Shown here piece by piece: positions 31,871-39,045 of a stretch of DNA of 64,000 bases. The stretch is from Leptotrichia shahii (lineage in GTDB: Bacteria > Fusobacteriota > Fusobacteriia > Fusobacteriales > Leptotrichiaceae), in assembly GCF_008327825.1 (NCBI RefSeq), contig NZ_AP019827.1, positions 682,001-746,000 on the forward strand, given 5' to 3'. The stretch's first letter is position 1. Every line of letters starts with the position of its first letter. A program made the translations under genes and the position numbers. The notes beneath the pieces were generated by a model, which was given only the letters and a program-made list of their open reading frames with translations, was not told where the DNA came from and made no database searches.

Positions 31871-31898
31871 AAAATTTTGAAGAAAAGAGATGGTAAAG

Positions 31899-32255
31899 AT
31901 GACAATATTGAAAAAATCTATGTTTGTATTATCTGTAATGACATTAATTGGTGGAATGAGCTTTGCTGCAGCAGCAAAAACAAAAAAAGCTCGAGTTGCT
32001 AAAAAAACAACTGTTAGAAAAGTTGCTTCAGAATCATACACTTGCGGTTCTGAAAAAATAACAGTTGCCTATCCAACAACAAAAACTGCAAGATTAACAA
32101 CAAAAGAAGGAAAAGTTTATAACTTAAATGTTGCAGTGTCAGGTAGTGGATCAAGATATGTTTCTAAAAATGGAAATATTGAATTTTTCAAAGGCGGAAA
32201 AGAGGCTATGTATAGAGGATCTAACGGTATTGAAAAATCTTGTACAAAAAGATAG
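31899..32255 (+). CDS. MliC/PliC-like secreted C-type lysozyme inhibitor
   Basis: The 118-residue precursor has a signal peptide with likely cleavage after AAAA near residue 26, a basic linker (KTKKARVAKKTTVRK) and a compact domain. Domain features match MliC: YTCGSEKITVAY, a central invariant SGSGSRY (81-87; the family has SASGARY), FFKGGKEAMYRG, and two cysteines (49 and 115) placed for the family disulfide. In the family the Ser and Tyr/Arg of that loop plug the lysozyme active site. There is no lipobox, so it is periplasmic. ATG 31890 is also in frame; 31899 has better spacing to AAGAG. Activity is inferred from homology. Confidence 0.75.
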   Translation: MTILKKSMFVLSVMTLIGGMSFAAAAKTKKARVAKKTTVRKVASESYTCGSEKITVAYPTTKTARLTTKEGKVYNLNVAVSGSGSRYVSKNGNIEFFKGGKEAMYRGSNGIEKSCTKR

Positions 32256-34257: not shown

Positions 34258-35334
34258 ATGGAAAAAAATTTCACAAAGGACGGACTTATTCTACTGAATA
34301 AAAGTAAAGGAATAAGCTCGTTTGCGGCAATTAATGAGCTAAAAAGAAAAATCAAGGCTAAAAAAGTTGGGCATGCGGGGACATTAGATCCGATGGCTGA
34401 AGGGCTTATGATTGTTATGATTAATGATGCTACAAAATTTTCTGATGACCTGATGAAAAAGGAAAAGGAATATTATGTTGAAATGGAACTTGGATACAAA
34501 ACTGATACTTATGATCTGGAAGGGACGATTATTGAAAGATATGAAGCTGAAATAAATATAAGCAATGCCCAAATAATAAAAGCTGTAAATAGTTTTAAAG
34601 GAAAAATAAAACAAATCCCTCCAATGTATTCTGCAGTAAAAGTAGATGGGAAAAAACTTTATGATTTGGCGAGAAAAGGTGTGGAAGTTGAAAGAACAGA
34701 AAGAAATGTTCAAATTTCAGAAGTTAGAAAAATAAAAATTGTTCGACCGAATAAAAATTCAAAAGATAATGAAAATATTAAAATTTCATTTTATGTAAAA
34801 GTCAGCAGTGGAACTTATATCCGTTCTCTAGTTTACGATATTGGGGAAAAATTGGGAGTTTTTGCTACAATGACAAGGCTTGTGAGAACTAAAATTGGAA
34901 GATTTGAAATTGAAGATGCGATTAATTTGGAAAAGGCTGAAGCTGAAATTGATAAATTGAAGGAATTAGTGGAAGCTAAAAGGGAAAATGAATCGTTTTG
35001 GGCTACAAAAAGTGAGGCTGTAATCAGAGCTGAAAAAATTCGGGAAATAGTGTGTTTTGTGGAAATAGAATATGTGCTTGACTATTTTGGGATAAATGTT
35101 TCCAATGAGAAATATGGAAAATTGAAAAATGGAATGACAGTTATTGACACATTTAAAAAATTTGAAAATATAAGTAAAGAAGTTAATATGAGAAAAAACA
35201 TTAAAGAAAATCAGAAATTTAAGATTTATGTGAGAAATAGAGATACAAATGAACGGGAATTTCGTGGAATTGTAAAAATTGTAAATATTAAGGGAGATAG
35301 GATTTATTTAAAAAGAGATAAATATTTTTTGTAA
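34258..35334 (+). CDS. truB: tRNA pseudouridine(55) synthase
   Basis: TruB makes pseudouridine 55 in the T-loop of most tRNAs. The catalytic segment VGHAGTLDPMAEGLM has the active aspartate near residue 43. YYVEMELGYKTDTYDLEG, PPMYSAVKVDGKKLYDLAR and SSGTYIRSLVYDIG are family motifs. At 358 residues it is longer than the common ~300; the extra length lies in the C-terminal part, which may be a PUA-like domain. The ribosome binding site is AGAAAGG. It is usually near rbfA or ribF, but not here. Confidence 0.92.
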   Translation: MEKNFTKDGLILLNKSKGISSFAAINELKRKIKAKKVGHAGTLDPMAEGLMIVMINDATKFSDDLMKKEKEYYVEMELGYKTDTYDLEGTIIERYEAEINISNAQIIKAVNSFKGKIKQIPPMYSAVKVDGKKLYDLARKGVEVERTERNVQISEVRKIKIVRPNKNSKDNENIKISFYVKVSSGTYIRSLVYDIGEKLGVFATMTRLVRTKIGRFEIEDAINLEKAEAEIDKLKELVEAKRENESFWATKSEAVIRAEKIREIVCFVEIEYVLDYFGINVSNEKYGKLKNGMTVIDTFKKFENISKEVNMRKNIKENQKFKIYVRNRDTNEREFRGIVKIVNIKGDRIYLKRDKYFL

Positions 35335-35366: not shown

Positions 35367-36950
35367 ATGAAGAAGTCAAATAAATATGTATTTGATATCG
35401 AAGTTTTTCCAAATTATTTTTGTATTGTATTAAAAAAGTTAAACGATGATAAAATATTGATTATTGATTCAGATAATTTTAACCGTCAAAAGAAACTTTT
35501 ATATGGAGTTATTTCAAAAAATGTGCTAATTTCCTATGCGGGACATAGTTTTGATGATATTGTGATTAATGATCTTTTAAAATACAGAAATTCAAATGTA
35601 AATAGGAATAAATTAAATAGTGAAATAAAAATAATAAGAAATATGCCAAAAAATGAGTATAAAAGTGAAAATCACGAATTTAATTCGTATGACTTGGCTT
35701 ACGAATATAACTTGAATCTTGGAGTAAAAGGGTTTGAGTTTAACTGTGGAGATAATATTGAAGAGCAGGATTTTGCTAATTTTAATTATGTAATAAAAAA
35801 AAATATATATGATAAAACTGTTGATAAAGTAATTGACTATTGCCTGCAAGATGTTTTGGCAACTGAAAAAATGTATAATTTTATAATTTCAGAAGAAAGT
35901 AACTGGGATGAAAAGGAAAACCTGTTAAATATGCTTACAAATGGCAATTACAGCAATAATATGAAACTTAAAAGAAAGATAAAATATTTAAACTACAGTA
36001 ATGACAAACTTGTGACTATGCTTTTGGAAAAGAATTCTGATAATTTTAGTCAGACTAGGATAAATTACTCAAAAAGAGTAAAAATAGATGACTATGATAA
36101 TTATCTTCAGAAAAAAGTGTATAAATTGTCGATAAAAAAAGATCATTTGTATAAATGGCTACTTGAAAATAAAATTTTTCTTGAAATAGATAAAAATATA
36201 ATAAAAAAAATACCGAGAGATTTGCTTTTAAAATCGTCATTTGCAAAGGATATTTTAAATAGGTATAGAACAAGCATTGTAAAAAGGATAAAAAGAATCT
36301 TTGCGAGGGAAGGCATTGAAATGGTGGGAGCATCAGAAAATGATATTTTTATAACAAATGTAACTAATGAGCTTTTAAAGAAAATAAGAAACAAGATAAA
36401 TCATCAATATCAAGAGATTTTTTTAATAGAAAATGTTGATAAATTTTTGAAAAATAAAAGTTCAATCTTGTATAAAGTTGGAGATAAAGTTAGAGGAATT
36501 AATGAATATCATTACAGTAAATTAATTATGCCAAAAAATCATAGATGGATTTCAGAAATTTTAAAATTATATTTTTGGGAAAAAAAAGAGATAGGAACAG
36601 CAGTAAGGGAAGTTTTTTCAGAAAACCCCGATATATTTTTTATGTATGCTTCAGTTTATGAAGATATTTATGCTTGTGATGAAAATGGGAAAATGAAATT
36701 TGAAAGCAATGAAGTGCTGGATAAATTTAGGAAATATCGGTTATATTTCTCAAGAACAGGATTATATAAAGCTGTAATTCGTAAAGATGAAAAATATTAT
36801 GAAAAATATGGTTTTGGAGATATTAATGACAACTTGTATAAAGTGAGAAATGTTGAAACAAGCGTAAATGAATTTGAAAATTATGAGGATATTGACTTGG
36901 AAAGTTATATTGATTATACTCAAAATTATATAGAAAAATATTTTGGATAG
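35367..36950 (+). CDS. Orphan DEDDy 3'-5' exonuclease/phage-polymerase-like protein
   Basis: The 527-residue product begins with a DnaQ-fold exonuclease. Exo I is FDIEVFPNY (D10, E12), Exo II is ISYAGHSFDDIVI (D63/D64) and Exo III is DYCLQDVLAT (Y158, D162), so the DEDDy acidic set looks complete. The FDIEVFPN opening and the spacing resemble the N-terminal proofreading domain of phage DNA polymerases. Residues 200-527 are Lys/Asn-rich; GASENDIFITN near 326 weakly recalls a polymerase palm strand, but no intact YGDTDS-type catalytic motif is seen. The likely role is nuclease without polymerase activity. It sits between truB and ruvC; RBS is weak. The family is otherwise unrecognised. Confidence 0.6.
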   Translation: MKKSNKYVFDIEVFPNYFCIVLKKLNDDKILIIDSDNFNRQKKLLYGVISKNVLISYAGHSFDDIVINDLLKYRNSNVNRNKLNSEIKIIRNMPKNEYKSENHEFNSYDLAYEYNLNLGVKGFEFNCGDNIEEQDFANFNYVIKKNIYDKTVDKVIDYCLQDVLATEKMYNFIISEESNWDEKENLLNMLTNGNYSNNMKLKRKIKYLNYSNDKLVTMLLEKNSDNFSQTRINYSKRVKIDDYDNYLQKKVYKLSIKKDHLYKWLLENKIFLEIDKNIIKKIPRDLLLKSSFAKDILNRYRTSIVKRIKRIFAREGIEMVGASENDIFITNVTNELLKKIRNKINHQYQEIFLIENVDKFLKNKSSILYKVGDKVRGINEYHYSKLIMPKNHRWISEILKLYFWEKKEIGTAVREVFSENPDIFFMYASVYEDIYACDENGKMKFESNEVLDKFRKYRLYFSRTGLYKAVIRKDEKYYEKYGFGDINDNLYKVRNVETSVNEFENYEDIDLESYIDYTQNYIEKYFG

Positions 36951-37029: not shown

Positions 37030-37599
37030 ATGAGAATTTTAGGGATAGATCCTGGGACAGCGATAGTGGGATATGCTGTTGTAGATTATGAAAATGGTGA
37101 ATACAATCCACTCGACTATGGATGTATTTTTACAGATAAGGATGAAGATATGCCAATTAGGCTGGAAAAAATTTATGATGGACTGGAAAACATTATAAAG
37201 CTATGGAAACCTGAAGATATGGCTATTGAAGATTTATTTTTCTTTAAAAATCAAAAAACAGTAATAAAAGTAGGACAGGCTCGTGGAGTAATAACTTTAG
37301 CAGGACAAAAGAATAATTTAAATTTATACAGTTACACACCGCTTCAAGTAAAAATGGGAATTGCAAGTTATGGAAGAGCTGATAAAAAGCAAATTCAGGA
37401 AATGGTAAAGTTAATGTTAAAGTTAGATGAAATTCCAAAGCCTGATGACGCTGCAGATGCCCTTGCCATCGCAATTACTCACATAAATTCTAAAATAGGG
37501 TTTGGAAGTTTTGACAGGGGAGATAATATTACAAAAAAATTGAGTAAAATTACTTCTAACCGAATAAAACTGGAAGATTATAAAAAATTAATAAAATAA
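37030..37599 (+). CDS. ruvC: Holliday junction resolvase RuvC
   Basis: Endonuclease cutting four-way junctions after RuvAB branch migration. The 189-residue product has the RNase H-like metal quartet: D7 in LGIDPGT, E67 in AIEDLFF, and D140 and D143 in PDDAADALAIAITH. QVKMGIASYGRADKKQIQ is the conserved DNA-binding segment. It has its own promoter; the ribosome binding site AGAGG lies rather far from the ATG. ruvA and ruvB are not in the window. Confidence 0.94.
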   Translation: MRILGIDPGTAIVGYAVVDYENGEYNPLDYGCIFTDKDEDMPIRLEKIYDGLENIIKLWKPEDMAIEDLFFFKNQKTVIKVGQARGVITLAGQKNNLNLYSYTPLQVKMGIASYGRADKKQIQEMVKLMLKLDEIPKPDDAADALAIAITHINSKIGFGSFDRGDNITKKLSKITSNRIKLEDYKKLIK

Positions 37600-37641
37600 G
37601 TTTATATATAAAAAATTTAAATAGAAAGAATGGTAGATAAA

Positions 37642-38103
37642 ATGAACATAGTTCTATTAAATCCAGAAATACATGTAAATACAGGAAATATAGGAAGAAC
37701 CTGTGTTTTAACAAATACAAAGCTGCATTTAATAAAACCTCTCGGTTTTGAACTGGATGATAAGAAAATAAAACGTGCGGGACTAGACTACTGGAAAGAT
37801 GTACAACTTTTCGTGTGGGAAAATTGGGAACACTTCTGGCAGGAAAACATCGAAAACAGCAATGCAAAAATCTATTTTGCAACAACAAAAACAAAACAGA
37901 GATATACAGATGTGAAATTTAATGACAGCGATTATATAATGTTTGGGCCTGAATCACGTGGAATACCTGAAGAAATATTGAATAAATACAAGGAAAGCAA
38001 TATTACGATTCCAATGCTTCCACTTGGACGTTCACTGAATTTGTCGAATGCTGTGGCGGTGGTGCTGTTTGAGGCTTTAAGACAAAATAATTTTGAATAT
38101 TAA
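37642..38103 (+). CDS. trmL: tRNA (cytidine/uridine(34)-2'-O)-methyltransferase
   Basis: A small SPOUT methyltransferase of 153 residues that 2'-O-methylates wobble C34/U34 of tRNA-Leu isoacceptors. It opens NIVLLNPEIHVNTGNIGRTC. The knot motifs are FGPESRGIPEEIL and IPMLPLGRSLNLSNAVAVVL. An in-frame ATG at 37630 lies within the AAGAATGG region; ATG 37642 begins the conserved strand and is preferred. It lies 42 bases after ruvC and is likely in the same operon. Confidence 0.92.
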   Translation: MNIVLLNPEIHVNTGNIGRTCVLTNTKLHLIKPLGFELDDKKIKRAGLDYWKDVQLFVWENWEHFWQENIENSNAKIYFATTKTKQRYTDVKFNDSDYIMFGPESRGIPEEILNKYKESNITIPMLPLGRSLNLSNAVAVVLFEALRQNNFEY

Positions 38104-38121: not shown

Positions 38122-39045
38122 ATGACATTATCAGAAAATGAAATAAATAAATTATCTAAATATATAAATAAACTTTTTATAGATACTTTTTATAAAGATT
38201 ATTGTAACTCTAAGTTGTTAAGAAATAATACTTTTCTAGTTAAGAATCCAATGTACCAACAGCAGTTAAAAGAACAAGTGCAAAAATTTGAAAGAATTTT
38301 TTATGTTGTAAATACTCAAGTAGCTAAATCAAAAATCGAGATTCCTGCGGGAGTAAAGCATATAAATTGGAATAAATTTTTTTGGTATTATTATACTGAA
38401 AAAAGTTTGAAAGATTATATATATTCATCAATAGTGTCGATTTTAAAAAAATTAGAGTATTTTGAAAAAGTAATTGATAAAATATTAAAAAATGAATCAA
38501 AAGATTTAACAAAAAATGAATTATTAAAGTTTCGTAATTTTCTTTCTGATATTTTATTGAAATATAATTTGGGAATACAAGAAAATAATGGTGAATATAA
38601 ATTAGTAAATAAAAATCAAGATATAATTCATATTAGTGAATTTAAATATCTTTCTGGATATAATGATTTGATTTTTCATCTAGAACAAAAAAGATATAAG
38701 GATACTGTATCAAATGCTCGAACTTGTTTTGAAGAATTTATTCAAAAAAGTTTAATTAAATTAAATAAAGAAGTAAAAAAAGACAATAAAAAAGATTTTG
38801 AAACTTTATTATCAGAGATAAAAATTCATTGTGAAAATTTTAATAATGAAATTTCAGAAAGTGTTAATAAAATATTGCTAGAAACTGCAAAGATTAGGGG
38901 AAAATGTAGTAGTGCACATTTTTCTGGCAATATAAATGAAAATATAGCATTATTAGAAATTAATTCTATATTTACTTGTTTATTTTATTTGGATAATTTC
39001 GTAAAAAAAATAATGAAATATAAACTAAAGGAGGGAAAATCTTAA
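38122..39045 (+). CDS. Abi_C/HEPN-like protein, possible RNase
   Basis: The 307-residue product has no signal peptide and is mostly helical. Its C-terminal third resembles the abortive infection C-terminal/HEPN fold: RYKDTVSNARTCFEEFI near residue 195, then AKIRGKCSSAHFSGN with R259 and H266 forming an RX6H motif, then a helix ALLEINSIFTCLFYLDNF. In HEPN RNases the RX4-6H pair is catalytic. The N-terminal 190 residues are unrecognised. The gene is very AT-rich and sits alone between trmL (18 bases upstream) and thyA. A defence role is inferred from the fold only. Confidence 0.5.
   Translation: MTLSENEINKLSKYINKLFIDTFYKDYCNSKLLRNNTFLVKNPMYQQQLKEQVQKFERIFYVVNTQVAKSKIEIPAGVKHINWNKFFWYYYTEKSLKDYIYSSIVSILKKLEYFEKVIDKILKNESKDLTKNELLKFRNFLSDILLKYNLGIQENNGEYKLVNKNQDIIHISEFKYLSGYNDLIFHLEQKRYKDTVSNARTCFEEFIQKSLIKLNKEVKKDNKKDFETLLSEIKIHCENFNNEISESVNKILLETAKIRGKCSSAHFSGNINENIALLEINSIFTCLFYLDNFVKKIMKYKLKEGKS

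Follow-up and report, generated by a model that had tools for sequence, protein, structure and literature searches.

An intact DEDDy exonuclease site on an apparently degenerate polymerase scaffold: a probable domesticated phage family-B DNA polymerase in Leptotrichia

Background

Disabled family-B DNA polymerases are already known, and the precedents that we found have either lost the exonuclease, as in PolB2, or survive as an inactive module, as in polymerase epsilon. The archaeal and bacterial PolB2 (G2) proteins, such as Sulfolobus Dpo2, have given up the exonuclease and kept polymerase activity (PMC2527604, PMC8764526). Because of its motifs, archaeal PolB2 had at one time been taken for an inactivated enzyme, yet it turned out to be an active polymerase, so that motif loss by itself is no proof of a dead polymerase (PMC8764526). 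The C-terminal half of eukaryotic Pol epsilon is a catalytically dead family-B module kept by selection (PMC2669801, PMC7544198). A 2026 survey of bacterial polymerases describes, in the part accessible to us, B-family groups whose exonuclease is intact or has been lost, and that part mentions no group that combines an intact exonuclease with a lost polymerase site (PMC12926913); absence from this portion of the survey and from the open-access papers searched is, of course, no proof of novelty. Among exonucleases, the predicted stand-alone PF10108 (DNA_pol_B_exo2) proteins are also cellular enzymes related to the exonuclease domain of PolB. In phages, the polymerases of PHROG 1252, such as Listeria phage P40 gp31 and Leuconostoc phage phiLN6B gp06, consist of a DEDDy exonuclease followed by palm and thumb.

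We analyzed a gene for a 527-aa protein in Leptotrichia shahii, located in a 64,000-nucleotide stretch of contig NZ_AP019827.1 (positions 682,001 to 746,000; hereafter the window; Table 1). The protein is similar in length to the PHROG 1252 polymerases, aligns co-linearly with their profile and has the same exonuclease residues, but differs from them in that the catalytic residues of motifs A, B and C are lost and the fingers are shortened, and the gene is chromosomal, with no phage replication genes beside it. Like PolB2, it is a family-B polymerase homologue conserved in cells that appears to have lost one of two activities; unlike PolB2, it keeps the exonuclease and loses the polymerase site, a mirror image of the archaeal case, and its origin is phage rather than archaeal. 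The dead half of Pol epsilon is fused to an active polymerase, whereas the Leptotrichia protein stands alone with an intact exonuclease, and, unlike PF10108 proteins, it appears to retain palm and thumb.

We consider it likely that this protein derives from a phage family-B polymerase that was domesticated and has been retained as a 3'-5' exonuclease bound to DNA; its nuclease activity and cellular role are predicted. With somewhat less assurance, we lean towards regarding it as the representative of an undescribed family, in which a phage replicase has been domesticated, its polymerase site has decayed, and the exonuclease has been kept together with a DNA-gripping palm and thumb as a 3'-end editor.

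Table 1. Features of the gene and its neighborhood (window coordinates)
Feature	Position	Strand	Basis or remark
Whole gene, palm-degenerate and exonuclease-intact family-B polymerase homologue	35367..36950	+	ORF with ATG start; PHROG 1252, hhalign
DEDDy 3'-5' exonuclease domain (predicted), residues 1-176	35367..35894	+	PHROG match, conservation, AF2, dN/dS
Degenerate motif A, residues 251-264 (V-Y-K-L-S255-I...)	36117..36158	+	hhalign register
Degenerate motif B, residues 281-291	36207..36239	+	hhalign, alignments
Degenerate motif C hairpin, residues 318-330	36318..36356	+	hhalign; in each AF2 model a beta hairpin flanked by two helices
Thumb-like C-terminal region, residues 383-527	36513..36947	+	kept also in the G049 homologue
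truB	34258..35334	+	upstream neighbor, 32 bp gap; same in 13/13 genus genomes
ruvC	37030..37599	+	downstream neighbor, 79 bp gap
SpoU/TrmL-type methylase (trmL)	37630..38103	+	next after ruvC

Family assignment

The sole family match of the protein is PHROG 1252, phage family-B DNA polymerase (E = 6.5e-18, residues 2-248), a similarity far above what chance would give and in line with the original prediction that its N-terminus resembles the proofreading domain of phage polymerases. No Pfam, NCBIfam or PADLOC model covers it above threshold; the PADLOC models thus give no hint of a role in defence. PF10108 failed to match even at E up to 10, while the control, protein L042 of genome G095, matched it at 1.8e-65. 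L042 had also matched phrog_1252; it is a PF10108 exonuclease, so we place it outside the present family. Its locus (L042:1423-3183) is odd in its own right, since the PF10108 exonuclease and a dTDP-sugar reductase-like domain are fused there in one 586-aa frame.

Profile-profile comparison (hhalign) with phage family-B polymerases gave 99% probability, and the family profile was matched to 45 phage polymerases in a single co-linear alignment spanning residues 5-524. In the tree, the family forms one clade (support 99/99) apart from the phage polymerases, on branches too long to point to an exact phage source. Searches for closer viral relatives with the C-terminal part or with the full family brought up none whose exonuclease domain was more than about 27% identical, and no plasmid relatives were found. 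Descent of the gene from a phage family-B polymerase of the PHROG 1252 lineage is supported by these sequence comparisons. The gene is present in a single copy in L. shahii, and the 13 Leptotrichia genomes examined yielded no further phrog_1252 protein, so that an active partner of this kind is absent from those assemblies.

The exonuclease domain and selection on it

A DEDDy site holds two metals and cleaves off the last nucleotide at the 3' end by hydrolysis. In the 527-aa protein, motif ExoI (FDIE) provides D10 and E12, ExoII (SFDD) D63, and ExoIII (YCxxD) Y158 and D162. These residues and D64 are present in all 12 intact Leptotrichia homologues and in the 34%-identical homologue of genome G049, and, when 19 phage polymerases are added to the alignment, no more than 13 columns stay invariant, five of which are D10, E12, D63, Y158 and D162. 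The complete DEDDy set, first noticed in a single sequence, is thus borne out in the genus, in the G049 homologue and in the phage enzymes. An AlphaFold2 (AF2) model whose input alignment included phage rows (mean pLDDT 62.8, mostly 70-90 across residues 1-90 and 150-170) has an RNase H-like N-terminus, the fold that the original prediction had proposed to look for.

Pairwise dN/dS is 0.06-0.13 for the whole gene and reaches its lowest values, 0.011-0.039, over the exonuclease domain, so selection maintains the gene and acts most strongly on the nuclease site. It is hardly credible, then, that we are dealing with a functionless relic of a decaying prophage, a reading for which the decayed palm and one genome with a broken copy (G012) might be cited: the dN/dS values, far under 1 along the gene and smallest for the exonuclease, refute it in the main, the gene is full-length with all five catalytic residues in 12 of the 13 species, and no phage genes are seen at the locus. 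With its catalytic residues present, the protein is predicted to be a functional DEDDy 3'-5' exonuclease.

The C-terminal region: a probable degenerate palm and thumb

None of the polymerase motifs A, B and C is intact in the protein. In the hhalign register, the motif A catalytic Asp of the phages aligns with S255, which is Ser or Thr across Leptotrichia (Thr in L003); MAFFT with phage rows brings D242, not S255, to this site, and D242 is unconserved in the genus, being lost in the L010-L012 group. Motif B reads K-I-P-R-D-L-L-L-K-S-S against A-L-K-L-x-L-N-S-x-Y-G in phages, with the motif B Lys aligned to D285; about 14 residues of the fingers, the Y-G of the motif included, are missing. At motif C the phage N-T-D-G is replaced by S-E-N-D, and the position of the catalytic Asp is taken by N325, invariant in the genus. 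For the G049 homologue we infer by eye a Glu at the motif A site and an Asn at the motif C site, since the MAFFT alignment is out of register there. The octapeptide ASVYEDIY was considered as a degenerate family-A motif C (HDE) and ruled out, because the relatives are family B and the segment aligns to the thumb.

When the exonuclease was removed, residues 292-525 still aligned to the end of the palm plus the thumb, with a score of 40.8. The null set consisted of column shuffles and window ORFs: 150 shuffles reached at most 30.3, the other window ORFs at most 25.0, and the reversed control 15.0. The match is weak, several single sequences scoring inside the shuffled range, so to the extent of this weak but controlled significance the C-terminal 350 or so residues look like a degenerate family-B palm and thumb. 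For the last 360 residues, the original prediction was therefore right about the loss of the polymerase site and too pessimistic in leaving the region unassigned.

The better of two structure models, the AF2 model with phage rows, supports this assignment. Its palm has a helix at residues 291-314, a hairpin at 318-330 and a helix at 334-352; in BFVD, Foldseek matched the model to phage DNA polymerases, the best one at E = 3e-12, and in PDB to the Pyrococcus abyssi family-B polymerase in editing mode (E = 8e-4). VIA-align spanned residues 1-527 on family-B polymerases with Z of about 11 and a high rmsd, which makes the overlay a loose one. Because phage rows could impose the fold, a second AF2 model was built from three family sequences only, without phage rows. 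Its confidence is low (mean pLDDT 35.8), and its best-scored stretch, residues 251-347, consists of a strand, helices, a long helix, a hairpin and a helix, the same palm order as in the model with phage rows. It has no significant match in PDB; the best of its non-significant matches include several palm-fold proteins, namely retron RT, Pol alpha and class III adenylyl cyclase.

Two other readings of the C-terminal region have to be weighed here. One holds that the DEDDy domain is fused to an unrelated domain and that the protein was never a polymerase. The family searches do detect only the exonuclease part, C-terminal similarity is weak, and the middle residues are the fastest evolving in most pairs. 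We nevertheless think this unlikely, in view of the co-linear C-terminal profile match, which beats all shuffles, of the palm-like topology in both AF2 models, and of the several palm-fold proteins among the non-significant matches of the phage-free model. The other reading, which we rate as very improbable, is a working, divergent DNA polymerase in which other residues supply the metal ligands. It draws on PolB2, a robust polymerase without the first Asp of motif C (PMC8764526), and such ligands could in principle come from D242 or from the E/D residues next to S255 and N325. PolB2, however, retains motif A, motif B and one Asp of motif C (PMC8764526), unlike the present family, where the motif A Asp has become Ser, Thr or Glu, the motif C Asp an Asn invariant in the genus, and the motif B Lys and about 14 finger residues are gone; D242, as noted, is not conserved in the genus. 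The PolB2 pattern, in which exonuclease motifs are lost and motifs A, B and one motif C Asp are kept, is the opposite of what is seen here. As the copying site is decayed and the proofreading site almost perfectly preserved, the protein is probably a former polymerase that is now a nuclease only.

Distribution and genomic context

A scan of contigs with a narrow pattern found the gene in only two Leptotrichia and left room for a wider distribution. In whole genomes it is present in 13 of 13 Leptotrichia and in none of 20 others of the same bacterial family; phylum-wide, 14 of 98 Fusobacteriota genomes have it, and the only member outside the genus among these 98 is G049, from another fusobacterial family, with a 560-aa protein that is 34% identical over its length. 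G012 (G012:C1:2075315-2076891; L013, L014) has the gene broken up into two overlapping frames, while truB, ruvC and trmL are intact; either the gene is not indispensable or this is an assembly error.

The order truB - gene - ruvC - trmL is found in all 13 Leptotrichia genomes, counting the one broken copy, and the neighbors are housekeeping genes throughout, with no phage genes at the locus, as the original prediction had described for L. shahii. The G+C content of the gene is 24.5%, against 29.8% for truB and 31.8% for ruvC. In sister genera g4, g6 and g8, ruvC directly follows truB with a gap of about 100-160 bp, which argues that the gene is an old insertion in the Leptotrichia ancestor; its loss in the other genera is a less likely alternative. 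The stretch from truB to ruvC showed no terminator-like site, which is compatible with co-transcription of truB, the gene and ruvC, though it does not prove it.

The proposal that the protein acts with RuvC, in Holliday-junction processing or recombination, could appeal to the position of ruvC next to the gene in every genome of the genus, on the same strand and with short gaps. We regard such a partnership as quite unlikely: truB-ruvC is the older arrangement into which the gene was inserted, sister genera have ruvC without the gene, and the G049 homologue adjoins upp, not ruvC. Adjacency to ruvC thus reflects shared history and is not evidence of shared function. The tie to RuvC originally suggested finds no support, and the linkage does not extend across Fusobacteriota, as the gene occurs in so few of the genomes and its sole homologue outside the genus lies beside upp.

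Two other ORFs of the window may be mentioned. One of 307 aa (38122-39045, 20% G+C), between trmL and thyA, occurs in this genome only among the 98 fusobacterial genomes and has no Pfam or PADLOC match; another, at 31890-32255, encodes a 121-aa protein with an MliC-type lysozyme-inhibitor domain.

Possible origin and function

Domestication of a phage polymerase that turned into a nuclease, as originally suggested, is supported by family match, profile comparison, structure model, phylogeny, locus and selection, with the activity itself predicted. In the scenario that we favor, a PHROG 1252-type polymerase gene would have been inserted between truB and ruvC in the Leptotrichia ancestor and kept since by purifying selection. 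The palm has lost both catalytic aspartates and the lysine of motif B, along with a portion of the fingers, and its scaffold and the thumb would be what remains; lacking a polymerase site, the enzyme would have no way back to synthesis. Thumb and remnant palm most likely still bind primer-template or 3'-ended DNA, holding the protein in a permanent 'editing' mode, in which 3'-terminal nucleotides would be removed without resynthesis. Such an enzyme would act on its own to trim 3' ends that are mispaired, blocked or overhanging. Family, residue conservation, motif loss, synteny and selection are what the analysis shows; catalytic activity, substrate and pathway are predicted. If the protein is active, a phage proofreading module can be converted into a stand-alone cellular nuclease, and it becomes testable whether a bacterium with no proofreading in its Pol I gains from 3'-end editing apart from synthesis.

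This last circumstance also bears on a different role, that of a compensating proofreader, providing exonuclease in trans to a polymerase without its own. The Pol I sequences examined from the bacterial family, Leptotrichia included, have no recognizable DEDDy residues in the 3'-5' exonuclease region. Sister genera, however, equally lack Pol I proofreading and do not have the gene, so that compensation for Pol I does not discriminate between them, and the genus has PolC with an RNase_T proofreading domain, a second RNase_T protein and ExoVII; we consider this role rather doubtful, and retain the 3'-end editor as the preferred reading. A lack of ExoVII or of PolC proofreading was discarded as the reason for the gene, because both are present throughout the genus, and a difference between genera in PF01612 matches proved only apparent, the Pol I alignments showing no real difference.

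In L. shahii, polA (G000:C1:978605-981792; L210:1106-4293) is divided into two overlapping frames of 382 aa (5' nuclease) and 707 aa (polymerase), which may be either real or an assembly error; in most other Leptotrichia it is one open frame of about 1000-1075 aa. Leptotrichia Pol I (L189-L206) also carries, between the 5' nuclease and the polymerase, an extra charged low-complexity segment of about 100-150 aa that is absent in sister genera.
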